Shown: piece after piece, positions 11,783 through 30,473 of the stretch
Numbering within the stretch: position 1 is the stretch's first letter
Layout of the letters: each line of letters opens with the position of its first letter
DNA from: Bacteroidaceae bacterium
GTDB lineage: Bacteria > Bacteroidota > Bacteroidia > Bacteroidales > Bacteroidaceae
Length of the DNA stretch: 43,678 bases
Assembly: GCA_017628845.1 (NCBI GenBank)
Contig: JAGBYI010000184.1
Span: forward strand, 1-43,678
Direction: 5' to 3'
The notes under the pieces: model-generated
What the model saw: only the letters and a program-made list of their open reading frames with translations
Databases searched by the model: none
What the model was told of the DNA's origin: nothing
Made by a program: the position numbers and the translations under genes

Positions 11783-14158
11783 TTACTGTGGGCGATTGCT
11801 GTAATCGGGGAGGGGCAGATAACATTTCTTGATATCATTCAACTGATCAGCCCATGAAGAGGCATTGTCGCCACGAGCCTTTATCTTGTTAGCCATATAC
11901 TCACCGGCGCTACCTTCGCCTTCTGCCTGACGGCGTAATGCTATACGCATAAGGTCGGGGAATCGGTGTCCCTCGAAAGCGAGTTCTAGAGCAGCTTCAT
12001 CCAGGATAAGTTCCTCTATAGCCTGAATAATGTCGGGGTTGGTTACATTATCATAGATTTCCTTCTTATCCAATGTCTTCTTGCCGGCAGCCTCCAATTT
12101 GAGATTAATTTGGTCGACGAAATTGTATGAACTGTTCTTCTCATCAAATTTCAGCAGACCGCAGCCCTTTTGGTGAATACCACGTGTAATGTATCCTTTA
12201 TTTTCTGTGGGATAATTATTATTAGAGGGTCGGGTACCATCTTCAATAGGCCATATCTTGAGCCAATTTACAGGCATATTAGACTGTCCGTTAAACTGTC
12301 CCTTGTTGAAGAACAACCATTCTTTACCTTGACTTTCTTTTACCTCATCCCAACTGATATAGTCGCAAACTATCTCAGTGTTCTTTGGAAGATAATTTTC
12401 ATATGAAAGTACATTCCATGTTATACCTGCCAATATGTTAGGTATGGAGTCAAAGTGTTTTTCCGCATTACATTGTGTGAGCAGATATTCTTTGAATTTA
12501 GTGGTGTCTTCTGCAAATTTGGTGCTATTCACATCTTCACCGGTAATTAGACAGATGTCATTTTCTTCCCAATCGACAGGCAATACCAATAAAGTATCGA
12601 TAAAGTTGCCATTTTCATCCAGCAGAGGTTTGTCGTTTTCATCAAACTTGATACCCTTGTATTCATAATGTACACGATATTGAGAAGGTGCGTAATCTGT
12701 AATGTCGCTGGGCAGCCACTTGCTGTTGTTGACCATACCATTCTTCAGAATAGCAAAAGCATGTCCAGGGAATCCGGCACGGTTCAGAGCTTCGGCAAAG
12801 CGCAACCATACCTGGCTCTTACGGTATACCATCGGATAAACGGTGCTATAACCGCCGTAAGGGTTCTGTTTCATTACGTATCTTTGTGACTTCTCCTCAT
12901 CCACATAGTAGTCACCGGATTTGTATGTTGAAATGTATCCTATACCATTTTCTCCGGAAACACCACGTGCATCTCCAATACCTTCCAGAACATGCAGTGT
13001 TGCAGCGTCTGAATCCATCAGCTTAAAATCGGATACCTGATAGATCTCGAACTTCTGGGCAAGGCGCAGATTGTCGTATCCGGCGCTGGGACTTAACTGA
13101 CGTTCCCAATTACGTGTCAGATAGATACTGGCAGATGTTGTGGAGTCACTGGTGGATGTGCTCTGGCGGATAGTGGCTTCAAAACCGAACAGATCGTTCA
13201 CGCCGCGCTGTACTGTTCCCCACAGAGCGTTTACACTGGAAGGAATGGCAGTGATGCTCTCGGAAGACTTGCTGGTTGCTCCGGTTTCATTCCAAGGACA
13301 GCCTAAAATTTCAGGTTCAGGGTTATCCTTGCCCAATTCCTGGAAAGCGGTAGAATAGTAGCTTGAAGGCAGTGTTCCGCCATATTTTCCGTCCAGGAAC
13401 TCATAGTAATACTCTGCCGCTTTCTCATACTGGTTGCCCATAAGGTAGAGGTCTGCCAGTACCAGAGAGGCAGGGAACATAGCCTTTGTGGAGTGACAAA
13501 CGCTGGTCTTGAAACCATAGTTGTCGTATTGAGGATATCCCCACTGTCTTTCTATTTCAAAAGCGCGTACCAGTTTTGACTCCAGTCTCTCCCAGAGGTT
13601 TGTTGGTGTAACTCGATCCTTGGAGTTGAAATTATTGATGTCATTGGTACTCAGCAAAGGTTTGTCGTAGAAGGGAACATCACCATAGTTGATAACCAGC
13701 TGCATGTATGTCCATGCACGTATGGCCTCTACCTGTGCATACTCGCGAAGCATGTATCTTTCGCCGTTTGCTTTCTCCAGGGCTGTGTCTACTTTGGCCA
13801 AATATGCATTACATGAGTTTATGACATGATAATAATCGCTTACCTTCAGATACCTGTTTGCTCCGTCTCTGATATTCTCTACATCACCGTTAAGACCGAA
13901 TGTAAGAATAGCCTCCACGCTGTCGGTGGTAAACTCGCCGCCATCAACGAGGTCGCCACGGCATTCGCCCAGGATAACATATCTTTCGCCAATGTTCTGA
14001 AGACTCTTGAGTATACCCCAATATGAGTATAGAGTATCACCTGCCACTTCATAAGAGTGGCGGTTGCTCTCAGAATTCAGCATGTCTTCACAAGAGGTGG
14101 TGGCCATGCTCAGCCCCAAACAGAGGCTGAGAATGGTTATGATAGATTTGTTTTTCAT
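11783..14158 (-). CDS. SusD-like surface glycan-binding lipoprotein with a large insertion (second pair)
   Basis: This 791-residue protein carries a lipoprotein signal (MKNKSIITILSLCLGLSMATTSC, lipid on C23). The N-terminal SusD half and TPR-like helices are recognisable (YAQVEAIRAWTYMQLVINYGDVPFYD, then VWLRFAEALNRAGF near 460). The C-terminal hallmark (ELILDEAALELAFEGHRFPDLMRIALRR) only appears near residue 720. The usual gap between these two parts is a few dozen residues; here it is about 240, which makes the protein far longer than the usual 500 to 650. The inserted part is rich in W, D, N and K and shows no motif I recognise. The start lies 8 bp after the SusC stop, so the two are coupled and should form one import complex. 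It is the last gene of the operon. Ligand unknown. Confidence 0.9.
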   Translation of the reverse strand: MKNKSIITILSLCLGLSMATTSCEDMLNSESNRHSYEVAGDTLYSYWGILKSLQNIGERYVILGECRGDLVDGGEFTTDSVEAILTFGLNGDVENIRDGANRYLKVSDYYHVINSCNAYLAKVDTALEKANGERYMLREYAQVEAIRAWTYMQLVINYGDVPFYDKPLLSTNDINNFNSKDRVTPTNLWERLESKLVRAFEIERQWGYPQYDNYGFKTSVCHSTKAMFPASLVLADLYLMGNQYEKAAEYYYEFLDGKYGGTLPSSYYSTAFQELGKDNPEPEILGCPWNETGATSKSSESITAIPSSVNALWGTVQRGVNDLFGFEATIRQSTSTSDSTTSASIYLTRNWERQLSPSAGYDNLRLAQKFEIYQVSDFKLMDSDAATLHVLEGIGDARGVSGENGIGYISTYKSGDYYVDEEKSQRYVMKQNPYGGYSTVYPMVYRKSQVWLRFAEALNRAGFPGHAFAILKNGMVNNSKWLPSDITDYAPSQYRVHYEYKGIKFDENDKPLLDENGNFIDTLLVLPVDWEENDICLITGEDVNSTKFAEDTTKFKEYLLTQCNAEKHFDSIPNILAGITWNVLSYENYLPKNTEIVCDYISWDEVKESQGKEWLFFNKGQFNGQSNMPVNWLKIWPIEDGTRPSNNNYPTENKGYITRGIHQKGCGLLKFDEKNSSYNFVDQINLKLEAAGKKTLDKKEIYDNVTNPDIIQAIEELILDEAALELAFEGHRFPDLMRIALRRQAEGEGSAGEYMANKIKARGDNASSWADQLNDIKKCYLPLPDYSNRPQ

Positions 14159-14166
14159 ATTTATTA

Positions 14167-17100
14167 TTACAGGTTAAGTGTTACACCTAAGTTGAAGCTG
14201 CGACCGCTGGGGATACGTCCTGCATCAATACCCTGATACAGGGTTCCGTTCTGGGCGCTTGTCTCGGGATCTGTTCCGAGGTACTTGGTCAGGCAGAAGA
14301 CGTCGTTTGCTTCGCCCCATACCTTGATGCCCTGTAACCAGCTGTTGTGGTAGGGAACCTTGTATGTCAGACGCACGTTCTTCATCTTCAGATAACTGCC
14401 GTCCTCAATCCAGCGGCTGCTCATTCTTTCATTTTCAACATATCCAAGGTTGTTGGTAAAGCATGCACGAGGCATGTCGGTTACTTGACCTTCGTATGTC
14501 CAACGGTGAGCCATAGCTGAAGTTTGGTTGTAGGTTGTATTGCCCGACTCCAGACGTGAACGCTGGTAGTTGTAGATGTCGTTGCCGAGGCTGTACTTGA
14601 AGTTTACGTCCAGACGGAGGTTCTTCCATGTAACGCTTGTGAAGATGTTACCGAAAATGTCGGGATTGGCATTGCCAAGAGCCACCTTGTCGCTCTCGTC
14701 TATCCAACCGTCACCATTCTGGTCCACGAATGCCATGTCACCGGCACCGAACTCGCGGTAACTGCCTGCCACGCCAGTGTAGTAGCGCAACTTGCTGGGA
14801 ACACCTCCGAATGCCTTGGTGGCACGGCCTGCCTCTTCTTCTGAAGCAAATACACCGGTTCCGCTTTCGTTGTTGTAGTTAACTTCCCAGCCATAGAATG
14901 TTCCGGCACTGTAACCTACAGCAGTAAGGATATTGCTCTTGCCGTATACGCTTGAGGTATAACCGTGGATTTCGCCAATCTTCTCTGTCTGCTTGCCGTT
15001 TTCGTCGCGCTTGAATAGTTCAATGAGGTTGTCCTTTGAGTCTGGCAGGGCAGTCACCTCATTGCTGTAGTGACCCAGGCTTGCGCCGAGTTCCCACTTC
15101 CAGTCCTTTGAATTTATCAATGCACCGTTCAGCTTCACCTCTACACCGCTGTTGGCCATTTCGCCTTCATTGGTCCAGAAGTTGGTGATACCGGCATAAT
15201 AGTACTTGTCGGAGAGATCTCGTATAGAGAGCATGTTGCTGGTCTTGTGCCAGTACAGGTCAATACGGCCATTCAGGCGGTTGTTGAGGAACGAACCTTC
15301 AAGTCCAACGTTGATCTTGCGTACGGTTTCCCACTGAAGTTCGCTGTTGGCTATGTTGGTCAGGTATTTGCCGAATACATTTTCAAAGACTTGGTCTGTC
15401 TCCCAATATGTACGTGATGCAAAGTAATCAAGATTGTCGTTACCGCTCTGTTCGATGCCAAAGGTAGCTTTCAGGTAGTTAACGTTTCGTGAGGGCTTGA
15501 ACCATTTCTCGTTTGTTAGAATCCAGCCTAACTGCAGTGATGGGAAGAATCCCCAACTTACACCTGCCAATCGGAAACCGTCCTTAGTGTGTGAACCGAA
15601 TCGGCTGCTGGACTGGGCACTTGCAGAGAATTCTGCAAAGTATCGGTTGGCATAGTTATAACCTGCATGCAAGTAGTAGGCCATATCCTTCCACGTGTCG
15701 TTTACACCGTTTGAACTGATAAACTGCATGTTTTTCTCAATATTGGGCAGTTTGTCATTCTCGTTGTTGTAACCTTGAAGGTTGGAATAGGTGTATGTGT
15801 AAGAGTTGAAGCGCCAACCTGCAAAAGCGGCAAAAGTATGTTCGTCCCATTGATGACCATAATCAATGCGGAAATCATTGTTTATGGCTGTTTGGTTTGT
15901 GAACTGGCTCTTGAGAACAGAGGTAATGTCGCCCTGATCCTCGATAGCGTATTTTGTTGCACCAGCAATGGGTAGGAAGTACTTCTCATTGTTGCGATTA
16001 AGGCTGAAATTGAATCTGTTTGAAATTGCCCAGTCTTTGTTTATTTGGTATTTAGGACATACATTGATGTTTATCTGGGTCAATTCAGCATAGTTCTTGT
16101 TCTCGCCACGGCCGTTTTCAAGAATCCAGTATGGATTGCGGGCAACCTCGTTCACATCGCTCAGATGCTGTGAGAACATGAAGGGGTTCTTGATATATTC
16201 TGTCATACCTGCTGTAGATGCATACTTGCCGGCCCAATCCTTGGAGAGTTTCAGACTTGCTTTGTTGTTGGCATCTGTGTCTACATAGTAGCTGTATGGG
16301 CTGATGAAAGGAGCCTGTACAAGACCGAGCACGTTTACTGCACCGATGTTCTGCTTGTCGTAATTCTCGCTCCATCCATTGTCCAGAATGTTGTAGGCAA
16401 CTTGGTTGTAGGCAATATCCAGAGATGTCATTATCTTGCTGCCAATCTTGATATCTGTGTTGAAACGCAGATTCAGACGGTTCATGCCATTGTTCTTCAT
16501 TGTGCTCTGTGCATCAGTGTAGCCCAATGACAAGGCATACATACCAACATCATCACCACCTTCTACGTTGATCTTGTAGTTCTGAGAAACAGCTGCCTGA
16601 TACATGCCGTCTTGCCAGTCAGTGTTGTTGTTGTAGATGTCGCGATAGAAGTTTGTTGGGCTCTGGTCCATGAAGACATACGAATTGAGCGTGTTTTTGT
16701 CCATACCATGGATAGTGGAGATCAGGTCACCGAGATAAGTAGTATATTGGGGACCGTCAAGAACACTGATCTTGTTAGGTATCAGTTCCACACCACCATA
16801 AATTCGTGCGTTAATTTTGGTAGCCTGGCTTTTGCCGCGCTTGGTAGTAATCTTTATTACACCATTTGCGCCTTTGGCACCATAGATGGCAGTTCCGTTC
16901 TTGATGACTTCTATTTTATCAACAGTCTCGGGATCCAAACCGGCAAGTACGTTGTTGAAGAAACCTTCGTGCATGGCAGTTCGGTCATACTGCATGTCCA
17001 GCATATTTCCATCCAAAATAACCAAAGGCTGAGCGTTGGCATTGATACTGTTGATACCGCGGATGGTCATGTATGCACCTTGACCGGGCAGACCATTCTT

Positions 17101-17628
17101 CTTGACGATGTTGACATCACCTGCCAGTTTGTTCATCATGTCGGTCTCTACCGTCAGACTGCTGGTCTCGTCCAATTTAATCTCGTTCTGGGCAGTTATC
17201 TGGGTACCTTCTCCATAGAAGCTGCCGAAAGCTGTGGAGATCATCTCTATGTCTGTACCATTCTTGTCGATGGCTTTCTGCTGGATGTTATATTCCGGAG
17301 CATAGACAAACAGAGTATTGATGAATACGGGAATCTCCACTTTATATGTACCATCTTCGTTGGTCAAAGTGGAATAGCGCTCCATGCCCAGGGCTTGAAC
17401 ACGCACACCACCCATGGGTGTTCCGGTAGCAGCGTCAATAACTCGGCCTGTAACGGTACGTGTCTCATGTTTGGCCTTATTACGTTTGAATTTGACAGTA
17501 TTTACACTGTCAGTCTGCTGAGTTTCCTGAGCATTAGTGTAATTGATGCCAAACGCAGCAAATACCATGAAGCAGAGACATGCACGCTGTGCTTTGCTCA
17601 TAATGTTTTTATATGTTGTATTTTTCAT
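14167..17628 (-). CDS. SusC-like TonB-dependent outer-membrane transporter (second pair)
   Basis: This 1153-residue protein has a signal ending in INYTNAQ (about residue 34), an N-terminal carboxypeptidase-D-like regulatory domain (TVTGRVIDAATGTPMGGVRVQALG, about 58-140), the plug (about 145-270, with GAYMTIRGINSINANAQPLVILDGN and the SusC-type end GAKGANGVIKITTKRGK) and a C-terminal 22-strand barrel ending in GRSFNLGVTLNL. It would import an oligomer bound by its SusD partner, powered by TonB. The CP-D domain is followed by a longer stretch than in the first SusC before the plug. A second Met nine codons in (MSKAQRACLCFMVF) gives a more typical signal and may be the true start. It lies 33 bp after the third FAS1 gene. 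Confidence 0.95.
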   Translation of the reverse strand: MKNTTYKNIMSKAQRACLCFMVFAAFGINYTNAQETQQTDSVNTVKFKRNKAKHETRTVTGRVIDAATGTPMGGVRVQALGMERYSTLTNEDGTYKVEIPVFINTLFVYAPEYNIQQKAIDKNGTDIEMISTAFGSFYGEGTQITAQNEIKLDETSSLTVETDMMNKLAGDVNIVKKNGLPGQGAYMTIRGINSINANAQPLVILDGNMLDMQYDRTAMHEGFFNNVLAGLDPETVDKIEVIKNGTAIYGAKGANGVIKITTKRGKSQATKINARIYGGVELIPNKISVLDGPQYTTYLGDLISTIHGMDKNTLNSYVFMDQSPTNFYRDIYNNNTDWQDGMYQAAVSQNYKINVEGGDDVGMYALSLGYTDAQSTMKNNGMNRLNLRFNTDIKIGSKIMTSLDIAYNQVAYNILDNGWSENYDKQNIGAVNVLGLVQAPFISPYSYYVDTDANNKASLKLSKDWAGKYASTAGMTEYIKNPFMFSQHLSDVNEVARNPYWILENGRGENKNYAELTQININVCPKYQINKDWAISNRFNFSLNRNNEKYFLPIAGATKYAIEDQGDITSVLKSQFTNQTAINNDFRIDYGHQWDEHTFAAFAGWRFNSYTYTYSNLQGYNNENDKLPNIEKNMQFISSNGVNDTWKDMAYYLHAGYNYANRYFAEFSASAQSSSRFGSHTKDGFRLAGVSWGFFPSLQLGWILTNEKWFKPSRNVNYLKATFGIEQSGNDNLDYFASRTYWETDQVFENVFGKYLTNIANSELQWETVRKINVGLEGSFLNNRLNGRIDLYWHKTSNMLSIRDLSDKYYYAGITNFWTNEGEMANSGVEVKLNGALINSKDWKWELGASLGHYSNEVTALPDSKDNLIELFKRDENGKQTEKIGEIHGYTSSVYGKSNILTAVGYSAGTFYGWEVNYNNESGTGVFASEEEAGRATKAFGGVPSKLRYYTGVAGSYREFGAGDMAFVDQNGDGWIDESDKVALGNANPDIFGNIFTSVTWKNLRLDVNFKYSLGNDIYNYQRSRLESGNTTYNQTSAMAHRWTYEGQVTDMPRACFTNNLGYVENERMSSRWIEDGSYLKMKNVRLTYKVPYHNSWLQGIKVWGEANDVFCLTKYLGTDPETSAQNGTLYQGIDAGRIPSGRSFNLGVTLNL

Positions 17629-17661
17629 TTTTCTTGCTTTTTGTTTTAGACATCTGGACTA

Positions 17662-19611
17662 TTATTCAGATTCTTTGCATTTCAGAATGATTTGGTCAAT
17701 CTTGAAACTGTTACTGAATCCTTTTCGGATATCTGCTCTCTTGGCATTAGTCTTGATTTCCAGGAAAGGATATGAGTACTTCTGGTTCCTGTATGAAACG
17801 GGGAATTGGAAATCTTCAAATATCGTTATGGTGTCGACCTTTTCATTCTTATATGGTTCGGTAACTGTTGTTACTTTTTTCTGGTATTTGTAACCATCGT
17901 ATTTGTTGTTCTGATAGTCTTCATCCCAGTAATACAAGGTACAGGTGAATTTGTTCTGGATTTCTTCTATTTCGGGTTCTTCTGTATTCGAATACCAGTA
18001 TGGAACAACAACTATTTGAATGTCATATTTTGCACTCATGACGTTTGCTTGACCTAACTTGCTTCCATCCAGAGAGAACACAATTACGTTTTCTGCCTGG
18101 GGGTCTGAGTTATATACATGCAAGCATGCCTGTCTGCTACATTTGCCATATTGGTTAATCCAGTTTGCAGTTGCATTGTTGTTTACTTCAAAGTATACAG
18201 CGCTTGTTCCTGCACCTGCTGTTTCGTTCTTATAATAGTAGTCTGCTTCTATCTCCAGATCTCTCATCCAGTAATTATGACCATAGTTCCAACTATCTGT
18301 CAAGATGGCAATACCATTGCTCATTTCCTTGATTTCTACGGTTCCGTCCTCAAACAGAGAATTCTTGCTCCATATCAGGTTTCCTGCTTCATCATATACA
18401 TCGCGAATGGTGTCGCCAGTTGTTGTCAGCAGGTATTTGCAGTTCTTGTAGTTTTCAATGAATTGCTGTGCGTTTCTCCAATCCTGACCACCGTTTCCTC
18501 TTTGTAGACGTGCATTGAATACCAAAGGATAGACAATGTCCATGTCAATATTTACTCTCTGCAGAGAGTCTGTTGTGCCATATTTGAATTCACAGGGGAA
18601 GGCATGCTTGGCTTTTTCGATAGTTATCCTCTGTTTGGTCTCTGGATTATCCCTGAGCTTGTTCATTTTGGGATATGCGTCGGCATATTTGTAGTAAGGA
18701 GCAAGCTTTGCCCTTGCTTCTGCCCAAGCCTTGTCGGTTGGAACAATCATTACGAAGGCTGAGTCTTCAATGCTGATTTGTGCATTGAACATCTTCATTC
18801 GTGTCATCCACTCTTCTTCGCTGTCTGCACCTGTGGGATCATAAATGCTTCTTGAAAACATGAGATTGTCCTGGAAGTAAACACTGTCAACATAGGTGGG
18901 ATTGCCATTTGCATCAGGCAGACCTTCAATGCTTGAACCTTGCATGAAGATCAACGTGTCTCTTTGCACAAGATATTCTTTGAATGTGTTTACCACACCG
19001 CTGAACTTGATGTACTCGTACAGATTGTAGAGAAACTCGTTTTCGCTGTCAATAATATGCAGAAGACCATTGCTTGCACCGATATTTTTTTCTTTGATAG
19101 CAGACTTCTGAATCAATCCGTTGTCGTAGTCTAAGGTAGCAAACTTATTGTTTATCAAACGTATGGTCTCCTTTCCTGTTTTGGTCATGGTCTTACGGAA
19201 CAAAGCCATGTGGTTGGAGATGAATTGCTGCTGAAGATTGTATGCATTGGTTTCTGCCATCTGCTCATATCTTGCCCACTCCTCGGCTGTAAGGGCATCG
19301 TTTTTGGGTGCCCATACAGTAACAGGTGAGTTACCGCTAAGTATGTCCTTGTATGTGTAGAAAACAGTATCGCTCCCGTTCATAGTGAAAGCGGGACGAC
19401 CCTCATCGCGATAATACTTTGCCTTGCTGACAATGTTGCGGAAAGAACTCAGGTCCTCGCGTTCTTCCAATAATTCCCAAAGGGTTTTATCGGCGGAACC
19501 GGTATCTTCTGCATTGTAATGCTCTTCCCATGTGTCAGTGCATGAGGGGACTGCCATTAAGGCAGTTCCCATGATAAATGCACCGAGAATTCTATTTATT
19601 CCTTTTTTCAT
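17662..19611 (-). CDS. Lipoprotein with two FAS1 (fasciclin) domains
   Basis: This 649-residue protein has a lipoprotein signal (MKKGINRILGAFIMGTALMAVPSC, lipid on C24). The first FAS1 domain lies at about 40-200 with the core VTVWAPKNDAL at about 97-107 and the closing motif NGLLHIIDSEN. The second lies at about 205-340 with the core FVMIVPTDKAW at about 286-296. The last 300 residues are beta-rich with many aromatics and polar residues, have no motif I recognise, and may form a ligand-binding module. FAS1 domains are adhesion or binding modules in many bacteria and eukaryotes; within a SusCD operon such lipoproteins sit where surface glycan-binding proteins usually are. The gene lies between another FAS1 gene (67 bp upstream) and SusC (33 bp downstream). 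Exact role unknown. Confidence 0.85.
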   Translation of the reverse strand: MKKGINRILGAFIMGTALMAVPSCTDTWEEHYNAEDTGSADKTLWELLEEREDLSSFRNIVSKAKYYRDEGRPAFTMNGSDTVFYTYKDILSGNSPVTVWAPKNDALTAEEWARYEQMAETNAYNLQQQFISNHMALFRKTMTKTGKETIRLINNKFATLDYDNGLIQKSAIKEKNIGASNGLLHIIDSENEFLYNLYEYIKFSGVVNTFKEYLVQRDTLIFMQGSSIEGLPDANGNPTYVDSVYFQDNLMFSRSIYDPTGADSEEEWMTRMKMFNAQISIEDSAFVMIVPTDKAWAEARAKLAPYYKYADAYPKMNKLRDNPETKQRITIEKAKHAFPCEFKYGTTDSLQRVNIDMDIVYPLVFNARLQRGNGGQDWRNAQQFIENYKNCKYLLTTTGDTIRDVYDEAGNLIWSKNSLFEDGTVEIKEMSNGIAILTDSWNYGHNYWMRDLEIEADYYYKNETAGAGTSAVYFEVNNNATANWINQYGKCSRQACLHVYNSDPQAENVIVFSLDGSKLGQANVMSAKYDIQIVVVPYWYSNTEEPEIEEIQNKFTCTLYYWDEDYQNNKYDGYKYQKKVTTVTEPYKNEKVDTITIFEDFQFPVSYRNQKYSYPFLEIKTNAKRADIRKGFSNSFKIDQIILKCKESE

Positions 19612-19678
19612 ACTATATAATATGAATGGTGAATAGTTTATTTAATTTTATTTAATGTTCTAAATGAGACTTTGCTGT

Positions 19679-21928
19679 TTACCAGATGTCTTCTGGTACC
19701 TTGGGGTTGTCATAGACGTCTTTCAAACAGAACTCAAGATAGTCCAGATAGAACTCGGTTTCAGTATTTGACAATACAGACTTGAATTGTATGTAATATG
19801 TTGAATCGGCCTTCAGTTCGTCTCTCAGGATAATTCTGCGAAGTGCATCCTCTTTTCTGCGCATAACCTGCTTGTCCTGTTGAGCCCCTTCCTGAGTAGT
19901 CCATTCCCAATAACTGTTTGGCGCTTTCATGTATCCATTGTTGCGCAATTTCTTGTCATTTTCTGCATTAACAAGGTCATCACCGGGAACATCGTCTTCC
20001 CAACCAACAGTTCCGGTTTCACCGACACCATGTGAACCGAACACATTGTACCATTTTTTACCACCCATACGCAGGTCAATAGGAATACCGGCTGCTTTAA
20101 GCTGATTCTTGTCTGTACCCCAATATACCTGACACATGCCTCGCTGAGAGTTGGCACTCACACCCATTCGTAACTCATAGATGCCAGTTTTGGGAACAGG
20201 GGGGAGTTTTAGGGTTATCTCGTAGTTGCCTACGATGTTAAATTCGTCGCCTTGATAATTCTTCCAGCAAGTAGAGCCATTGTTTGAAACACGACCTGTC
20301 AAATAGTAGAATTTTGTGTTACGGCTGATGTCACAGTCTTCAAGGTATCTGTAATCCTCTGTGATAGGTATGCCCACACACTGGTTTCTGGCAATCACGT
20401 TTTCGTTACATCTGATATCGTTTGACATCAGTTCCTTGAAAAATGTAGCTGCGTCAATTCGGATTCGCTCACTTGCCATCTTTTGGGCTGTACTTTCATT
20501 GAAATACAATCCGCCAGTAGGGTCAGGAGTAGCCTTAATGTTGTAAATGTACGCATTGAAGAGGTCGGGTACGTCAACGGTATTGATTTCCAGACCTTCT
20601 CTGCCTGCAAGAACTTCCTTTTCACCGTATTTGCCACGACGTCCGTTGTCAAGTGTCGGGAATCTGTTCAAGAATACAACACCTTTGCGGCCATCGCCTC
20701 TGACAATGGGAGGCTCAAAGGTCTTTATCAACCTTCTTTTACCCATAGTGGTGTAGTAGTCAAATACAGATGTTGTACCTTTACCTGAGTTGGCAATGGT
20801 GTAGAAGAGTTCATTGTAATGGACTACAAGTTTGTTAGGTTCTATCTTTGCAGGAATAATGTGATAGGTTACAAACTGATTCAGAGCATTATCTTCTTGG
20901 GTGTAATCGTTTCCTTCGTTTGCCCCATTCAAATGCAGGTCGTTATCAGTGACGAATTTGCTGACCATGCTGACAATTTCTGCAGGTTCGTAAGCGGTCA
21001 TATCGCCTTCTGCGTCGCCAAGTCCAAGTACATTTTTCCACCAGATGTCGTCTTCAAGGAACAAGGTATAGCCATAATACCTGTGTTCTGGCAGATATCC
21101 AGGATAACTATAGAAAGTCGGGTGCGCATCAAGGTCTTTCAGAGTACCGATCATCTTCAGTCTATAGTATTCCTCATCTTCAATCTGAGAAAGTTCAGGT
21201 AGCAGGTTACATGCTTGCGTAAGACAAGCATAAACATAGTAACCGGATTTCTTGTCGTCAAGGATCTGTTGGAAGAAGTCTGCTGCGGTAGCATCGCTCG
21301 GAGAAACGACCTTGGCAACCTGGTGTATACGTCCGTTAATGGTATATATATCGCAATTGGTGTTTGAAATCTTACAACCGCTTACGGCATAATCCGAAGC
21401 CTCGTCGTCCGTAACCTTGGTAATCAGCAACTTCCTGTTCTTCATGTTAGGCTGAGCCAGGTTTACATTCAAAGAGATACTGAAGTCTGTTGTCTGATAG
21501 GCTTCTCTATCGTCTCCATTGTCAATAATGCTATTGTAAACTATATCCTTACGGGTCTTCTCCAGTAATTCGATGTCCTGAAACTCAGGAGCATCCCAGC
21601 TGGCCTCAGTAATAACACCACTGTCCTTGAGATGTGCCAGATAATTCTGTATTGCTTCATTTGTAGGAGCAAAGCAGGTATAACTACCTCTTGCAGACAA
21701 TAACTGGCTCAGGGTAGAAGTGGAGTAATCGCTGATATTTACCGTATCCAGCAGATTGCAGTACTCGCTGTAGTCTGAGTGTGTGCGTAAGTAACTGATA
21801 ATGGTATTACCTGTAAAGGTATATCTCGCAGAGGTGTCTATCTCTTCCGTGCAACTATGTGTAAATAAAGCACCGGTTACAATAGCAAACAGAAGCAGAA
21901 TCCTGTTTATTTTAGATATGATATTCAT
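19679..21928 (-). CDS. Lipoprotein with two FAS1 (fasciclin) domains
   Basis: This 749-residue protein begins with a lipoprotein signal (MNIISKINRILLLFAIVTGALFTHSC, lipid on C26). The first FAS1 domain (about 38-215) shows the core YTCFAPTNEAI near 83-93 and the closing NGRIHQVAKVVSP. The second (about 215-390) is more diverged, with YTLFLEDDIWW near 287-297 and the typical LNQFVTYHIIPAK. A further C-terminal region (about 540-749) contains PKTGIYELRMGVSANSQRG and ends with TEFYLDYLEFCLKDVYDNP, reminiscent of a beta-sandwich carbohydrate-binding fold, but this is a guess from pattern alone. It starts 17 bp after the first SusD gene and precedes the next FAS1 gene, so it is within the operon. 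It is presumably anchored at the cell surface beside the SusCD complex. Confidence 0.85.
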   Translation of the reverse strand: MNIISKINRILLLFAIVTGALFTHSCTEEIDTSARYTFTGNTIISYLRTHSDYSEYCNLLDTVNISDYSTSTLSQLLSARGSYTCFAPTNEAIQNYLAHLKDSGVITEASWDAPEFQDIELLEKTRKDIVYNSIIDNGDDREAYQTTDFSISLNVNLAQPNMKNRKLLITKVTDDEASDYAVSGCKISNTNCDIYTINGRIHQVAKVVSPSDATAADFFQQILDDKKSGYYVYACLTQACNLLPELSQIEDEEYYRLKMIGTLKDLDAHPTFYSYPGYLPEHRYYGYTLFLEDDIWWKNVLGLGDAEGDMTAYEPAEIVSMVSKFVTDNDLHLNGANEGNDYTQEDNALNQFVTYHIIPAKIEPNKLVVHYNELFYTIANSGKGTTSVFDYYTTMGKRRLIKTFEPPIVRGDGRKGVVFLNRFPTLDNGRRGKYGEKEVLAGREGLEINTVDVPDLFNAYIYNIKATPDPTGGLYFNESTAQKMASERIRIDAATFFKELMSNDIRCNENVIARNQCVGIPITEDYRYLEDCDISRNTKFYYLTGRVSNNGSTCWKNYQGDEFNIVGNYEITLKLPPVPKTGIYELRMGVSANSQRGMCQVYWGTDKNQLKAAGIPIDLRMGGKKWYNVFGSHGVGETGTVGWEDDVPGDDLVNAENDKKLRNNGYMKAPNSYWEWTTQEGAQQDKQVMRRKEDALRRIILRDELKADSTYYIQFKSVLSNTETEFYLDYLEFCLKDVYDNPKVPEDIW

Positions 21929-21945
21929 TAGTAATCCTCCTTATT

Positions 21946-23754: not shown

Positions 23755-23766
23755 TATGAATAACTA

Positions 23767-26700
23767 TTAGAATCCGAGGTTTATACTACATGTAAATGAC
23801 TTGCTGCGTGGTGTCTTGGCCCAGTCAATTGCGGGGTTGAAACCTGCAGGGCTGATTTCGGGGTCAATACCGGTGTACTTGCTCCAGCAGAAAAGGTTGT
23901 TGATGGAGGCTGAGAGATCCAATGTGCGGACTCCGCATTTCTTGAGCCATGCAAAATTCTTGGGATCCATAGTGTACCTTAGCTGGATGTATTGTACACG
24001 CAGATAATCGCCATCCTCAACATAGCGGTCGTTCAGGATAGAGTTGAAACTGCTTGCACCTGTTCCATAAGTGTTGATGGCACGTGGGATCTCTGTGATA
24101 TCGCCATTCTTTCTCCAACGCCATGTAGTTGCATAGGACTGGTTGTTGTTGTTCTGCATGCTTTCGTATTCCATACGAGCAAAGTTTACTACCTTGCTGC
24201 CCACGCGGAAGTTAAGACCGATGTTCAAGCTGAGCTTGTCGTAGAAGAATGTCAGACCGCCACCACCGAAGAAGGATGGGTTGGAGTTGCCGAGGTAAAC
24301 CATATCGTAGCGGTCAATCTGACCGTCGTGATTTATATCCTCATATATAACGTCACCGCCATTAAATTCATAACGGCTTGCACCATCGTTGTTGTAGCAG
24401 TAGTACATCTTCAGGGGATTGCCCTTAGCATCGGTGAGTCTGTTTCCGTTCTTGTCGTACGCAATAGGACAGGTGAAGTTCTCGTTACGGCGTTCTGCTG
24501 CTGCGGCAGTGTTGATGGGGTTGCCCTTGATGTCCTTACCGCTGGCTGTATGAGCATATTGCATGAACTCTGCATAATCCTTGGCAGGACGTGTCTTGCC
24601 GTCTACGACGATGGTCTCGTTGTAACCATAGTTGCTCCAGCTTTCCAAAGTATAGCCGTTGTGCTCGTAGTCGTATCTGTATACACCCTTGTGCTTAAGA
24701 CCATAGATAGATCCCAGGGCATTGCCAATCTGTACGCGACGGGTGTAGTTGAGGTTTCCTGGCTGGTAGTTCTCAGAACCATTGACTTCTTCCAGATAGA
24801 GACTGTTCAGTTCCTGTACTTCATTGAAGTTCTGAGACATGTTGAAACGTGCTTTCATGCTGAACTTTCCAACTTTGGCAAATTTGCCGGTGTTGATATA
24901 AACCTCCCAACCCTTGTTGTACATTACGCCACCGTTCATCTTCGCAATAGAAGAGAAACCGTTTGCTGCAGGAATTCGGATGGGGCCAATGAGCAGGTCT
25001 TCTGTCTTCTTGCCGTAAATTTCAGCGGCAACAGATATCATATCGTCAAAGAGTCCAAGGTCAAAACCCATATTCCACATAGAACTCTGTTCCCAACGGA
25101 TGTTTTGCAGTGACAGGTTTTCTGGAATGATTACGTTGTGACCGTTGTACATTCCGTTGCTTCCATATCTGTTATATTGGTTGTTTGAACCGATAGAACT
25201 GTTACCGTAAATACCATAAGAGGGTCTGAATGACAATGTTGTCAACCAACCGTTTGACCAGTCCATCCACTTCTCGTCGGAAATGTTCCAGCGTCCGGCA
25301 AAGTAGGGGAATGTACCATATTTGTTGCCGGCACCGAAGTTGGTGCTACCGTCAATACGCACGCTGGCATCAAGGTTGTACTTTCCATCGTATGAATAGT
25401 GCGTCTGGAAGTAGAAGGACTGTCCGCGCCAAGTGCTGTTGCCGGCAGAAGCCTGATTGAGCATGCCGTTTGCAGTGGGGTCTTCGATTCCATCGGGAGC
25501 ATTCCATACTCCTCTGTTCTGGTAACTGGAGTTACCGGAGTACATTTCGAAACGTGCAAGACCGCTTAAGGTGTGCTTGGTGTTCTTGAATGCACTATAG
25601 AATCTAAGGTCGTGACGTGTAGAGAACTGCATAGACTTGTTTTCACTGCTGGTGATGGCGTTACGGTTGTTGTTGAAACCACCAGTACCATTGTCACCGC
25701 CGTTTACCCAAGGCATATTGATCAGTTCTGCGGGGGTGAATGAACTTGAACTGCTGTTGTTGATGTTCAACTGGACATCACCAACATAGTTCAACCTCCA
25801 TTGGTCTGCTTCTTTACCAAGGAGCTTGTATTCTATGCTGAACTGAGGAGTGAGCGTGTATTCTTCCTGTTTGTTGTTTTTCAGGTTTGCATATGCTACA
25901 GGGTTGCCGTTCTGGAACATGTCGCGAAGTTCCCATGAAGTATGGTAACCGTCGTTTTGTATTCCATTCTTATAATCACTGGTAGCAGCCAAAGGCAACA
26001 TGTGGAAATACTGGCGTTGGCCGTTGCTGATAACAGGATTTCCGTATTCGTCATAAGCATACAGGGTCATGTTGGGCATGGCTTTATAAGCCTTTGCGTT
26101 TGCCTCGTTTGCAACAATGTTGTTATGACGGTTAGCTACGGTCATGTTGATATTGGAACTGAACTTTATTCGGTCGCTGACCCAATAATCCAATACGGTA
26201 GAAGTGGTAAAACGACCGAAATCCTGATTTATGGTAGTACCGTCGTCCATGTCATAACCAGCACCAATACGGAATGTGGCCTTTTCACCACCACCAGTCA
26301 GGGTGAGATAGAAATGGTGGTTCATGCCAAAGCGGTTTACTTCGTCTATCCAATTGGTGTTTTTGTTGTAGTTGTGGAAGATACTTCCGTAGGTGTTGTT
26401 GTAGTCCAGCTCGAGGATGCTCTTTGATGTGTTGGTAGGATTGAAGTATGATTCCTTCATGTACATGGTGTATTCGTCACCATTGAGCATCTTGTAGCCT
26501 TCCGGCTGCCATGTTCCGGAGAACTTGTAGTTGAAGGTAACAGATGTCTTTCCGCGCTTACCACGCTTTGTCTTGATCTCGATAACACCGTTAGAACCCT
26601 TTGAACCCCACTTGGCTGCTGCACCGTCCTTTAGTACAGTAATGCTTTCGATGTCCTCGGGATTGATGCTGAGCAATGTGGAGAACTGCTCCTCGTTGTC

Positions 26701-27336
26701 AAGATTGGAGTAGTCAATGTTCTGCTTGGCTTCCTCGGGGATGTCCTGGATGTGGTCGTTAAGTACAATCAGAGGCTGTGCGTTACCGTTCAAAGTGCTG
26801 GTACCACGCAAGCGCATGGTTGTACCTGCACCTGCATTACCGGAGTTGGCCACGATGTCCAAACCTGCAATCTGACCCTGAAGGGCTTCGTCGACAGAGG
26901 TAAAGGACAGACCATCAAGGTCAGCCATGTCGAATTTCTGGACAGCACCGGAGAATTCCCTCGCAGGTATGTCAAGGCCGGTTGTGGGGGCCATCTTCTT
27001 TGCCTTTACTTCAACGGTCTGCATTACCTTGGCATTGTCCTCCATGCGAATCTTGAAGACGGTCTTGCCTGTAGTGGGAATAGTTACCGTCTTGTAACCA
27101 ATATAGGAGATGACAAGGTTGCTCTTGTCGTCCTTGAGCGTCATAGTAAAGTTACCGTTGAAGTCGGTGACGGTAGCATTGAGAATACGGTTGTTCTTGT
27201 CCACCTCCTTTACATTTGCTCCGATGATGACGTCTATGTCGTCCTCTACAGTACCGGAGATACGGCGCTGTGCGTTGGCTGGCAGGGCCATGACTATTAC
27301 GGCCCACAGCATAAATAATTTTAATATATTATTCAT
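23767..27336 (-). CDS. SusC-like TonB-dependent outer-membrane transporter (first pair)
   Basis: This 1189-residue protein has a signal peptide (MNNILKLFMLWAVIVMALPANAQ), a CP-D regulatory domain (RISGTVEDDIDVIIGANVKEV, about 25-105) and a TonB-dependent plug (about 110-275, with TTMRLRGTSTLNGNAQPLIVLNDH and GSKGSNGVIEIKTKRGKRG). A barrel follows and ends in KSFTCSINLGF, the terminal aromatic being the usual signal for the barrel assembly machine. The plug contains a longer insert (IPEEAKQNIDYSNLDNEEQFSTLL) after the second strand than the partner in the second pair. The gene starts 11 bp after the first FAS1 gene and is followed by SusD after 12 bp. It imports the ligand captured by the SusD and FAS1 lipoproteins; the ligand is not known. 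Confidence 0.95.
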   Translation of the reverse strand: MNNILKLFMLWAVIVMALPANAQRRISGTVEDDIDVIIGANVKEVDKNNRILNATVTDFNGNFTMTLKDDKSNLVISYIGYKTVTIPTTGKTVFKIRMEDNAKVMQTVEVKAKKMAPTTGLDIPAREFSGAVQKFDMADLDGLSFTSVDEALQGQIAGLDIVANSGNAGAGTTMRLRGTSTLNGNAQPLIVLNDHIQDIPEEAKQNIDYSNLDNEEQFSTLLSINPEDIESITVLKDGAAAKWGSKGSNGVIEIKTKRGKRGKTSVTFNYKFSGTWQPEGYKMLNGDEYTMYMKESYFNPTNTSKSILELDYNNTYGSIFHNYNKNTNWIDEVNRFGMNHHFYLTLTGGGEKATFRIGAGYDMDDGTTINQDFGRFTTSTVLDYWVSDRIKFSSNINMTVANRHNNIVANEANAKAYKAMPNMTLYAYDEYGNPVISNGQRQYFHMLPLAATSDYKNGIQNDGYHTSWELRDMFQNGNPVAYANLKNNKQEEYTLTPQFSIEYKLLGKEADQWRLNYVGDVQLNINNSSSSSFTPAELINMPWVNGGDNGTGGFNNNRNAITSSENKSMQFSTRHDLRFYSAFKNTKHTLSGLARFEMYSGNSSYQNRGVWNAPDGIEDPTANGMLNQASAGNSTWRGQSFYFQTHYSYDGKYNLDASVRIDGSTNFGAGNKYGTFPYFAGRWNISDEKWMDWSNGWLTTLSFRPSYGIYGNSSIGSNNQYNRYGSNGMYNGHNVIIPENLSLQNIRWEQSSMWNMGFDLGLFDDMISVAAEIYGKKTEDLLIGPIRIPAANGFSSIAKMNGGVMYNKGWEVYINTGKFAKVGKFSMKARFNMSQNFNEVQELNSLYLEEVNGSENYQPGNLNYTRRVQIGNALGSIYGLKHKGVYRYDYEHNGYTLESWSNYGYNETIVVDGKTRPAKDYAEFMQYAHTASGKDIKGNPINTAAAAERRNENFTCPIAYDKNGNRLTDAKGNPLKMYYCYNNDGASRYEFNGGDVIYEDINHDGQIDRYDMVYLGNSNPSFFGGGGLTFFYDKLSLNIGLNFRVGSKVVNFARMEYESMQNNNNQSYATTWRWRKNGDITEIPRAINTYGTGASSFNSILNDRYVEDGDYLRVQYIQLRYTMDPKNFAWLKKCGVRTLDLSASINNLFCWSKYTGIDPEISPAGFNPAIDWAKTPRSKSFTCSINLGF

Positions 27337-27347
27337 GGTTTATTGAT

Positions 27348-30300
27348 TTATCGGATTGCGAATTTCTGCTTGTACTTGCGCGCTTTGTCGGGGTCGTAAT
27401 TATCGCCCCACAATACGTCTGGAGTTTCGGAGGTATGTTTCAGGACTCCGTCTATCAGGTGTATGACAGCGTAAGAAGCACCTTCCTGCTTGATGCCAGA
27501 CAAGAAACCATTTTCGTTCTGGCTTTCCTTGACCTCACCGCTCAACGATCTGTCGCAGGTCATAACATTGATAACGGGAACGTCTTGGCCATTAACGTCC
27601 TTCCATTCCTTAATGGTGTTATTCCATCGTGTGCTATTTTCAGTGTTATCCTTTACCTTCAATACGGTGCCGCTGCCTTCTTTCACACGTATTACTTTGT
27701 GCTTTACAAACGTGCCATAGTCTTCGTTGAATGAACTTGAGGTGATCTCTGTTTCATCCATTTCGCTCTTGTCTGCGAAGAGGGATTTGTCTGCAAAGTG
27801 ACTACGTATAAAGTTTGTCAGGTATATAATCTGATTCTGAATGATGCCGCTGTCCTTCTTATTTGTCAGATAACCGTCTTCGTCGCATCTGCTATCGTAT
27901 TCCTTTTGGATGCTTTCCCATGTGGGCAGGCCATTTTGAATTGCTTCCTGCATGGCTTCGTTAGAAGGTATAAATGCTGTGTAATTGTAGTTGTTGAAGA
28001 ACTGTACTATTCTGTCAACAGTCTTGTTGCTTAGGAATGTACGATACAGGTTGATTGCTCTGTTTCTGGCTTCAACATGTTCTTTAACGTTCATGTCGTA
28101 CTCCTTTTCGTCAACAAGGCCGGATTTAAGAATCAGGTCTTGGTTAAAGGCATCGCAAAGTTCAAAGAATTCAAAGAAAGGATTGGTTTGCGCATCCTGA
28201 TCAAGATAGTCATTCATGCTTCCTTCTGCACCTCTTTCAATGTTTGAGAGAACGCTGAATACACTTCTTGATGCAGGAATCAGAGGTGCATTCAGAGTGA
28301 AGGTGCAACCATTTTTATAGTCGCCACTTTCATTTACGTCACAACGTATGATGCCGGGATTGCTTTGTGCTAAACCAGCTCTTTCATTTTCCAGTTGGAA
28401 ACCGCCTTGCGCAGCTATCACCTTGTTGCCTTCAGTGTTGCGGATAACCTTGATGCCCATACCGTTCTTGGCTACATAGTATTCGTCTTCGTCGGTGTTG
28501 ATTGTATTTTCGTCACCATCGTGTACTATAGTGCTACCTTCAAGAATCTGGCGGAGGCGGTCAATGAAGTCACCCTGTGAAATGGTTGTACCCATCAGGG
28601 GACCGCCGATAGAACCGTTTGCGATGTTGTATTGTTTAAGTGCGTTGCTTGTGGATACTGGGAATGGGAAGCTGTTAGCTTGGCTTGCATCCGGTTTAAC
28701 GTACTTGAATTCAATCATGCGTGGGTATTTGCTGGAGAAACTCATCGGGTCATAGTAGTACAGCATGCCTTCGTCGCATGGCATAAAGAAGCTGAAACGA
28801 CTTCTCATAGCCTTTAGATAGGCATAGTAGTGCAGGTTCATACCTTGTACTTTCTGGTCGCTGTAAATAGCCCAATACATTATTTTATTTGTAGAGCGGA
28901 GGAATGCAGGTGTTGCCACACAGTTGAAATCAGAAGGGATCTGCACACTTCCCATAACATATACGGCGCCATTGCAAGCCAGAAGGACAGTGTCTATGGC
29001 ATTGATGTCTTCAGGATAGTAAATCTGCTCAAGAGTAGTTTCCTCTCGCAAGGTGGTCATCTTGCTGGGAACAGATGCCACGAAGCTTTCTTGCATACAG
29101 TGACTGATGATTTTCTCTATCTTGTCAAGGGGAATCTGGTCAATGTCCTTGTAGAGGCGAATCAACTCTTCCTCGCTGGCCAAACTGTAGTTCCATGTTG
29201 GATCCAGTGTGTACTCCTGAATCAATGTCTTACCACCCTCTTCAGAGAAGAATTTTACCATCTGCTCGTCGTTGGGAATGAACATGGCTCCCATATCCTC
29301 CTGAGGTGAGCTGGCAGTTACGGGGTAGTATCCGTTCCAACCTGGATCAAATTTAAGAAGAGCGGTACCGGTATTTGCAAAGGTAGTACCGAGCTCGTTT
29401 CTGTTTAATTTGCCTCCACCAAAGGATCTTAACGAGTAATAACGCTTGGAATAGAGAGTGTCTGTTTCCTCAAAATTCTCGTTCAGTCTGGAGAATAGTT
29501 TACCTACAGTTTTGTTCTGGAAAGGAACAGAGAAACGTTCCAGCATGTGGCTGAATATGTTTGTCTTTCCGTTTGTGCGGATAACCTCTGCCATGTTTGC
29601 CAAGGGCACAAGTGGTCTGTGGGTCTTGTTGAGATAACCGTTTTCGCATACGATGTCAGCGCTGTCCAGACGGTGGCTGTAGATATGTATGTCGCTGGTT
29701 ACGCGTTCCTGGCCTGTAATGATTCTAAAGTCATTGTCGGTTATGTGTTTCTTCGCCATGAACTCGTTGGTGAACTGCAGCATCATTGTTAATGAGCTGT
29801 CCAAAACCATATAGATGGAGTCGTAATGAAGATCGCCTCCATTTCTGATTCTGCTCCACTGGTCTACCTCTGTTTGCTTGGCATTGTCTTCTGATGTCTG
29901 TCTGTCTGCAGACCAGTAGGTTACAGGGAGGTCAGTAACTGCCACACGTGTAACGCTGTCCACAGCCTCAACGTCAGTATAGCGACGCAGGTAGCTTCCT
30001 CGTTCGGGTTTGGAACCAGCACTGCTTGAGAGGTTCTCCATGACGATTGCATTGTTGAGCATGCTGGTGTGTAGCAACAGCTTCTTCTGACTCTTGGTCA
30101 GGTTCTCATAGGTTGTCGCTTTTTTCCATGGATTGCTTTCTGGCAATTCGCTGTTTTCTTTGAAGAAAGCTTCCCATGCATGGTCGTCGGCGACAAAGAC
30201 TGTCTTGGAGCCTGTGCGCTTCAGGATTTCTACCAACGAACTGTTTTCATCGCTGCCGGAGTTTACGTCCGGGTCAGCAATCAACCTCAGATAGTTCTGA

Positions 30301-30473
30301 TAGTTTCCGTTACTTTCAAGAGTCTCGTAGATGCTGGAGTTGAGCCACTTGGGTTTTTCGTCATCCAAGAAGTACTCATCCTGACATGCCGAGAAACTTC
30401 CGCCGAGGGCGAACAGGCATGTGGCAAAGGCCAGATGCTTGCTGCATTTACTTAAACGGTTTCTCATACACAT
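27348..30473 (-). CDS. Very large lipoprotein with four FAS1-like domains, first gene of the operon
   Basis: This 1041-residue protein has a lipoprotein signal (LAFATCLFALGGSFSAC, lipid near residue 30). Four FAS1 cores can be seen: KTVFVADDHAW near 90-100, AMFIPNDEQM near 394-403, FSFFMPCDEGM near 560-570 and YTAFIPSNEAM near 831-841; the last closes with VIHLIDGVLKH near 1010. The closing motif of the first is less clear, and the domains are diverged from each other. The annotated start MCMRNRLSK has a second Met two codons later, equally plausible. It is the promoter-proximal gene, with a likely promoter at 30616-30645, and is followed after 11 bp by SusC. Being first, it may be the most abundant product. 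A role as surface adhesin or primary ligand capture protein is inferred from family and context only. Confidence 0.84.
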   Translation of the reverse strand: MCMRNRLSKCSKHLAFATCLFALGGSFSACQDEYFLDDEKPKWLNSSIYETLESNGNYQNYLRLIADPDVNSGSDENSSLVEILKRTGSKTVFVADDHAWEAFFKENSELPESNPWKKATTYENLTKSQKKLLLHTSMLNNAIVMENLSSSAGSKPERGSYLRRYTDVEAVDSVTRVAVTDLPVTYWSADRQTSEDNAKQTEVDQWSRIRNGGDLHYDSIYMVLDSSLTMMLQFTNEFMAKKHITDNDFRIITGQERVTSDIHIYSHRLDSADIVCENGYLNKTHRPLVPLANMAEVIRTNGKTNIFSHMLERFSVPFQNKTVGKLFSRLNENFEETDTLYSKRYYSLRSFGGGKLNRNELGTTFANTGTALLKFDPGWNGYYPVTASSPQEDMGAMFIPNDEQMVKFFSEEGGKTLIQEYTLDPTWNYSLASEEELIRLYKDIDQIPLDKIEKIISHCMQESFVASVPSKMTTLREETTLEQIYYPEDINAIDTVLLACNGAVYVMGSVQIPSDFNCVATPAFLRSTNKIMYWAIYSDQKVQGMNLHYYAYLKAMRSRFSFFMPCDEGMLYYYDPMSFSSKYPRMIEFKYVKPDASQANSFPFPVSTSNALKQYNIANGSIGGPLMGTTISQGDFIDRLRQILEGSTIVHDGDENTINTDEDEYYVAKNGMGIKVIRNTEGNKVIAAQGGFQLENERAGLAQSNPGIIRCDVNESGDYKNGCTFTLNAPLIPASRSVFSVLSNIERGAEGSMNDYLDQDAQTNPFFEFFELCDAFNQDLILKSGLVDEKEYDMNVKEHVEARNRAINLYRTFLSNKTVDRIVQFFNNYNYTAFIPSNEAMQEAIQNGLPTWESIQKEYDSRCDEDGYLTNKKDSGIIQNQIIYLTNFIRSHFADKSLFADKSEMDETEITSSSFNEDYGTFVKHKVIRVKEGSGTVLKVKDNTENSTRWNNTIKEWKDVNGQDVPVINVMTCDRSLSGEVKESQNENGFLSGIKQEGASYAVIHLIDGVLKHTSETPDVLWGDNYDPDKARKYKQKFAIR

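Follow-up and report, generated by a model that had tools for sequence, protein, structure and literature searches.

Organization of the operon

The DNA analysed here (hereafter the window) is one whole contig of 43,678 bases, JAGBYI010000184.1, from a 2.67 Mb genome, 84.6% complete, of an uncultured gut bacterium of the Bacteroidaceae. Positions 11783-30473 hold seven close-packed open reading frames (ORFs) on the minus strand, with intergenic gaps of 8-67 bp, which in order of transcription read F1-C1-D1-F2-F3-C2-D2, that is, three lipoproteins with FAS1 domains (F1, F2, F3) and two pairs of a SusC-type transporter and a SusD-type lipoprotein (C1D1, C2D2). A first-pass annotation of the same DNA had described seven tightly spaced minus-strand genes in the order FAS1-SusC-SusD-FAS1-FAS1-SusC-SusD, and our ORFs lie at the bounds that it gave, with the families over their cut-offs (for F1, see below).

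27348..30473, minus strand: F1, lipoprotein of 1041 aa, opening the cassette; four FAS1 cores
23767..27336, minus strand: C1, SusC-type TonB-dependent transporter of 1189 aa; TIGR04056, 605.6 bits
21946..23754, minus strand: D1, SusD-type lipoprotein lid of 602 aa; PF07980 and PF14322 above cut-off
19679..21928, minus strand: F2, lipoprotein of 749 aa with two FAS1 cores and a conserved C-terminal region ending in ...PEDIW
17662..19611, minus strand: F3, lipoprotein of 649 aa with two FAS1 cores and a C-terminal region
14167..17628, minus strand: C2, second SusC-type transporter, 1153 aa, of a lineage distinct from C1; TIGR04056, 526.9 bits
11783..14158, minus strand: D2, second SusD-type lipoprotein, 791 aa; PF07980 and PF14322 above cut-off; last gene

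Both SusC proteins exceed the curated cut-off, a SusD-family gene follows directly both times, and a lipobox-like cysteine stands after the signal region of F1, F2, F3, D1 and D2 (sequences judged by eye). F1 is annotated as starting MCM... (27348-30473); several homologues have their first ATG at the place of its second (Met3), which may be the true start. Inside the operon there is no ORF for a sensor, a sigma/anti-sigma pair, a peptidase or a carbohydrate-active enzyme (CAZyme), in agreement with its earlier description as enzyme-free and devoid of sensor and sigma/anti-sigma genes. A Pfam scan of 19 flanking ORFs of the window yielded no regulator and one glycoside hydrolase of family 16 (GH16), a promoter pattern scan upstream of F1 gave no site, and neither Rfam nor a tRNA scan found anything in the window. 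Measured against a classical polysaccharide utilization locus (PUL), the window has the SusCD pair and lacks both linked CAZymes in the same direction and a linked sensor-regulator.

FAS1 domains and SusC lineages

The F2 and F3 proteins score above the Pfam Fasciclin cut-off. F1 alone falls below it (18.7 vs 22 bits), and 45 of 45 members of the F1 family alignment match Fasciclin at E<=0.01. The cores listed here come from an HH comparison between a profile of 24 canonical FAS1 domains and the family alignments of F1, F2 and F3 (112, 100 and 110 rows, respectively).

29604..30305, minus strand: F1 core 1, residues 57-290, with insertions; HH probability 97.8%
28935..29294, minus strand: F1 core 2, residues 394-513; HH probability 92% (45% in a shallower run)
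28275..28811, minus strand: F1 core 3, residues 555-733; HH probability 96%
27435..27995, minus strand: F1 core 4, residues 827-1013; HH probability 97%
21299..21772, minus strand: F2 core 1, residues 53-210; HH probability 99.6%
20504..21076, minus strand: F2 core 2, residues 285-475; HH probability 97.6%
19039..19455, minus strand: F3 core 1, residues 53-191; HH probability 99.1%
18280..18774, minus strand: F3 core 2, residues 280-444; HH probability 89% (not seen in the shallower run)

The total of eight cores (HH probabilities 89-99.6%) supports the count of four, two and two made from the letters; the shallower run, on fewer alignment rows, was weaker, missing the second core of F3 and giving only 45% for that of F1. 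The F1 and F3 family profiles also match the solved FAS1 proteins periostin and TGFBI (best 7e-10 and 1.5e-12, respectively), and no Pfam match above cut-off was obtained for the C-terminal regions of F2 and F3. Judged by profile similarity, F1, F2 and F3 are members of the FAS1 family.

Among solved chains, 8aa4 is closest to both C1 and C2, and PMC7618045 gives it as the SusC of the dextran system. RagA is among the solved relatives of both, and BT_2264 matches C2 weakly (6e-14) and is not among the matches listed for C1; no chain of the BT2261-64 structure entries is among the solved matches listed for F1, F2 or F3. C1 and C2 each score far higher on their own profile, including in genomes of other orders, and the D2 and D1 profile scores are closer in far genomes (e.g. 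136 vs 120 bits in genome G493). Because the two SusC proteins stay distinct in such far genomes, the duplication of the SusCD pair appears, at the level of sequence, to predate the split of the orders, unless the cassette moved horizontally.

Conservation of the gene order

A profile scan of contigs with the C1 alignment found at least 386 relatives, of which the best 80 were kept as a ranked set rather than a census. Within their extent, all 80 loci agree with F1-C1-D1-F2-F3-C2-D2: all seven genes are present in 43, F2 is absent from 18 and in tandem in 4, and 15 end too early. Among the 43 seven-gene loci, D2 is often truncated where the sequence stops, and one locus has a further SusC upstream; in L115 no D2 was called in the 0.9 kb that follow C2. 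The 80 loci include those of the isolates Prevotellamassilia timonensis (L131) and Xylanibacter muris (L135).

The F1 profile matched, at E<=0.001, 61 of 61 genomes of the genus, 89 of 248 of the family and 46 of 392 of the order, many of the family and order matches being short. The match is strong (E<1e-60) in 59 of the 61 genus genomes, the other two, G005 and G020, giving only about 1e-5, which may be a cross-match of F2. The order sample contains 391 further genomes, 16 of them with a full-length F1 (>500 bits); at least one locus was opened in each, and 14 genomes show the cassette with local variants, the loci of G345 and G186 being cut within D1 and C2, respectively. F2 stands before F1 in G290b, G316 and G326b, an extra F2 follows D2 in G111, and F2 is missing from the cassettes of G223 and G383. 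Two tandem cassettes lie on one contig of G138 (L150/L151), the second with F2 behind D2. ORF calling missed F1 in L117, F3 in G237 and G290a and F2 in L266, all four of which were found by tblastn.

Weak F1 matches also led to the cassette: G065 and G092 keep its order as far as read, and the five genomes of genus g26 (4.2-7.0 Mb) all have the full seven genes. The phylum sample held 14 genomes of other orders of the class, and loci were taken from six of them chosen by Fasciclin pattern. Three of these six (G493, G481 and G467) have the full order, and G462 carries a reduced cassette as well as one SusC-SusD-FAS1 triad. The shorter SusC-SusD-FAS1-like triads of G462 (L232, L231) are a possible ancestral single unit. 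None of the cassettes read with space at both ends had a single SusCD pair.

The search for this gene order that the first-pass annotation called for thus finds it across families of the Bacteroidales and in three genomes of other orders. From these comparisons the seven-gene cassette looks old and reusable rather than peculiar to this organism, old because its two SusC lineages stay distinct across relatives. Many genus genomes (e.g. G001:C11, G010:C68, G029:C32) hold a further, diverged long F1 copy (bits about 550-830), and G028, G030, G031, G034, G438 and G459 have only this diverged type; a second type of cassette may exist in the genus.

Enzymes around the cassette

Among 59 neighbour proteins of other cassettes, hand-chosen for Pfam as large and near, 21 carry glycoside hydrolase (GH), polysaccharide lyase (PL) or carbohydrate esterase (CE) families. 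The neighbour survey has 27 loci with a member of a PF11790 (GH128-like) protein family and 34 with a member of a GH43/GH32-like cluster; these are single-linkage clusters with a few members from other families, and Pfam was run on two GH128-like members and one GH43/GH32-like member. In the genus locus set, which partly overlaps, a GH128-like gene lies near 16 of 64 loci and a GH43-like gene near 30. In one lineage (L113, L117, L121, L125, L126, L127) a gene like peptidase M64 accompanies the upstream GH128-like gene, and DPPIV-like genes lie near cassettes in G011/G016/G003.

The partners change from genome to genome. PL11, relatives of GH28 and a sensor-kinase-like ORF (Pfam-checked in G620) are near the cassettes of G620, G680 and G704, and hybrid sensor kinases stand beside those of G620 and G753b. 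Three GH92 genes and one GH38 gene precede the cassette of G596, a GH51 gene follows that of G233b, and that of G467 is flanked by a rhamnogalacturonan-lyase-like protein, GH2, GH115, an acetylesterase and GH28. The cassette of G493 is flanked by GH2 and a sugar-kinase, isomerase-like and aldolase-dehydrogenase gene set, which we take, from its domain make-up, to be L-rhamnose genes. In Xylanibacter muris, PL11 lies upstream.

Among the matches listed, 10 of the 103 F1 positions (49 genomes) have PL11 no more than 30 kb away, vs 5.6 expected at random (Poisson p 0.058), in a test that scored at most three candidates per genome, with many F1 positions unopened, treated positions as independent and omitted G000 and G378, both without PL11. 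RhaA was present in 17 of 27 tested genomes of the genus and of the window's near relatives, with none in G000, G432 or G436.

The window itself has one carbohydrate enzyme near the operon, on the opposite strand, its stop codon 584 bp from the last stop of the operon:

9462..11198, plus strand: GH16 enzyme, convergent neighbour, probably not part of the cassette

About 290 residues precede its catalytic part. Most of its named PDB matches are laminarinases or beta-1,3-glucanases, the best, 6t2r, being named only a beta-glycosidase. In the close relative G432 about 25 kb separate the GH16 gene from the cassette, the 20 kb read around it in G436 contain no cassette gene, and G433 has no close GH16 homologue. 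In G432 and G436 the gene keeps neighbours sized like DUF4199 and oxaloacetate-decarboxylase (OAD) genes. We thus reject GH16 as a conserved functional partner, as it travels with DUF4199/OAD-type genes and not with the cassette.

Loss of F2 from the cassette and its dispersal

A search with a single F2 protein gave 0-18 matches per genus genome and matched 1 of 24 genomes outside the genus, alignment searches reaching further; the window genome has no second F2 match. Among the matches listed, other F2 matches average 0.85 in the 20 genomes that have an F2 no more than 13 kb from F1 and 8.1 in the 10 that have none so near (Mann-Whitney p 1.8e-5), some counted matches being perhaps gene pieces. 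The comparison covers the 30 of 37 genus genomes with a located main F1; G005, G020, G027, G028, G030, G031 and G034, with no main-type full-length F1 position, were left out. The statistic is not phylogenetically independent, and it amounts to one or a few events because the F2-less genus cassettes form about one clade. In the C1 tree this clade has two F2-bearing rows inside, and L128/L133 form a separate pair.

Cassettes were read in nine of the ten genomes with no F2 near F1 and in G454: nine have D1 directly before F3 and that of G012 is cut at D1. F2 is present in each of the 20 regions read around its matches in G454 and G006 (in L266 by tblastn), and no SusC or SusD was detected in them by profile, several being cut by contig ends, nor in eleven solo F2 regions of other genomes by BLAST at 1e-5. 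The dispersed F2 loci, which mark a sub-clade of the genus with F2-less cassettes and up to 18 F2 matches in a genome, are L253-L272, L021/L022, L023/L024, L029, L032, L037, L039, L043, L045, L050, L058 and L060; the L254 and L255 rows have the same sequence and mirrored flanks, and could be two assemblies of a single locus.

The 32 solo sequences need three changes on the F2 tree. Twenty-six of them group together (support 84) beside the cassette-borne F2 of G032/L102 (support 81), and G032 still has F2 in its cassette, plus six other copies. G021, G026, G014 and G017 form a second solo group, and two G004 solos group with the clade of the window's F2. Orphan F2 genes have as neighbours GH2 genes, a CotH protein and very large surface-protein-like ORFs, and that of G014 adjoins oxaloacetate-decarboxylase-like genes; some others are presumably GH78, GH97 and GH127, to judge by eye from their N-terminal letters. 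The F2 proteins of the genus end in a strongly conserved C-terminal tail, ...VYDNPxxPEDIW (window 19682-19750), which is lost in more distant homologues and, from its sequence, is a possible docking motif.

Possible function of the cassette

We consider it likely that the operon is a glycan capture-and-import platform that combines FAS1 surface glycan-binding proteins with two SusCD pairs. This reading draws on the gene content, the eight FAS1 cores found by profile, the conserved order, the distinct SusC lineages and the changing enzyme neighbours. The operon would be the outer-membrane half of a glycan-uptake system. Exposed on the cell surface, F1, F2 and F3 would hold a polymer or its fragments, probably a glycan rather than a peptide, near C1D1 and C2D2 by means of FAS1-based glycan-binding modules; the two non-identical pairs would act jointly as pedal-bin transporters for oligosaccharides, their lids delivering fragments for TonB-driven import through C1 and C2. 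Lineages would pair the seven-gene cassette with different enzyme sets, the enzymes being in the present case unlinked or supplied by other cells. The mechanism is modelled on SusCD and on utilisomes, as presented in the available parts of PMC7618045 and PMC7782687. More speculative, and in our opinion doubtful, is an extended version of the proposal, where the two different SusCD pairs form one two-channel unit, maybe as a mixed C1D1-C2D2 dimer, the FAS1 proteins are a new class of glycan-binding protein, and the F2 position in one sub-clade is served in trans by up to about 18 scattered, diversified orphan F2 lipoproteins, many with enzyme or surface-protein genes of their own alongside, which feed the one importer as an exchangeable capture panel.

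Several observations weigh against the platform. The FAS1 fold is known chiefly for adhesion. Of the scanned neighbour proteins, 38 of 59 are not carbohydrate enzymes, many being housekeeping or without match, and peptidases occur, M64 near 6 of 37 loci of the set from other Bacteroidaceae and M60 in G383. PL11, RhaA and homologues of the GH128-like and GH43-like partners were not found in this genome at its present completeness, and no enzyme, sensor or kinase is linked to the cassette among the scanned ORFs of the window. The likeness to the rhamnogalacturonan-I (RG-I) core of Bacteroides thetaiotaomicron is one of gene order.

This precedent raises the question whether the cassette is specifically an importer of RG-I (pectin), in this organism as elsewhere. 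Enzymes for RG-I stand beside it in G467 and in three of the five g26 loci that were read, the presumed L-rhamnose operon flanks that of G493, and X. muris has its upstream PL11; however, just 10 of the 103 listed F1 positions have PL11 near, with 5.6 expected at random, RhaA is restricted to 17 of 27 genomes although F1 is strongly matched in nearly the whole genus, the context in G596 is GH92/GH38, and the window genome yielded neither PL11 nor RhaA. We therefore regard a general RG-I importer as unlikely, the PL11 and RhaA counts weakening it. As far as gene neighbourhoods tell, RG-I would be a partner in some lineages, and it is not claimable as the ligand in this lineage. A ligand tied to the adjacent GH16, with the cassette serving a beta-1,3-glucan system, would suit the laminarinases among the PDB matches of that enzyme and the GH128-like genes at the upstream site in relatives, but GH16 keeps company with the DUF4199-OAD-type genes at a distance from the cassette and its best match is named a beta-glycosidase only, which makes such a system very unlikely.

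The peptidases near some relatives' cassettes make a glycoprotein or peptide ligand possible, and RagA is related to both SusC proteins, as would be expected of peptide or glycopeptide import like that of RagAB or BT2263-64, in which the FAS1 proteins would serve to grapple peptides or glycoproteins; M64 beside the cassettes of one lineage, M60 in G383 and the DPPIV-like genes point the same way. Against this stand the dextran SusC as nearest solved chain for both transporters, the weak match of BT_2264 to C2 and its absence from the matches listed for C1, the lack of BT2261-64 chains among those listed for F1-F3 and the excess of glycan-active over peptidase genes among scanned neighbours, and we hold this alternative to be quite unlikely. 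Surface attachment to plant fibre, mucus or other cells through a reused SusCD is highly improbable: eight FAS1 cores and the very large surface-protein-like ORFs beside some orphan F2 genes would suit it, but pure adhesion would need no second SusCD pair, and no cassette read with space at both ends had just one. We found no positive evidence here for the pure attachment role, or for the haem- or vitamin-like ligands, suggested by the first-pass annotation. Its idea of surface capture followed by SusCD import fits the glycan platform; its contrast with ordinary PULs and its ready-made ligand do not hold generally, as the cassettes of relatives adjoin polysaccharide enzymes. Nor do close homologues always sit with the CAZymes of one known polysaccharide, an outcome that it had named as contradicting it, because enzyme partners vary between relatives and PL11 is near few of the F1 positions listed.

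Because gut Bacteroidales share the seven-gene order with genomes of other orders of the class while the surrounding enzymes change, our results suggest a general-purpose surface platform that is separable from substrate-specific enzymes. Two SusCD pairs that have never merged pose a testable question, namely why there are two. The disappearance of F2 from the cassette, combined with its spread to other sites, is a natural experiment on the swapping of capture proteins.

Comparison with known systems

SusCD uptake loci themselves are known; the FAS1 partners, the shared order and the dispersal of F2 appear to be undescribed, no description of FAS1 proteins as SusCD partners having been found in the literature searched (subscription papers were outside its scope). 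The FAS1 proteins periostin and TGFBI share the FAS1 cores and are the solved proteins best matched by F2 and by the F1 and F3 profiles, whereas F1-F3 are bacterial lipoproteins in a transporter operon. BT2261-64 resembles the cassette in joining SusCD to two accessory lipoproteins, according to the accessible portions of PMC7782687 and PMC7618045, and differs in the accessory proteins, none of its chains being among the matches listed for F1-F3.

The levan and dextran utilisomes, which combine SusC2D2 with a surface glycan-binding protein (SGBP) and GH lipoproteins in the part of PMC7618045 available, are similar in adding surface lipoproteins to SusCD, and it is the dextran SusC that is nearest to C1 and C2. 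In contrast, the present operon has three FAS1 lipoproteins, no surface GH and two different SusCD pairs, and the mixed C1D1-C2D2 dimer tentatively proposed above would differ from the known SusC2D2 homodimers. The RG-I PUL of B. thetaiotaomicron, as far as PMC8002723 was available, contains the SusCD pairs BT4164/65 and BT4168/69, the lyase BT4170 and the surface glycan-binding protein BT4167. Its C-D-x-x-C-D order, the two x genes being deduced from locus-tag numbers, recurs here. The present operon differs in having no lyase or other enzyme; no RG lyase is linked to the cassette among the window ORFs scanned, and the genome has no PL11 match. The g26 genomes that do have RG-I enzymes, as in that PUL, carry the whole seven-gene cassette.

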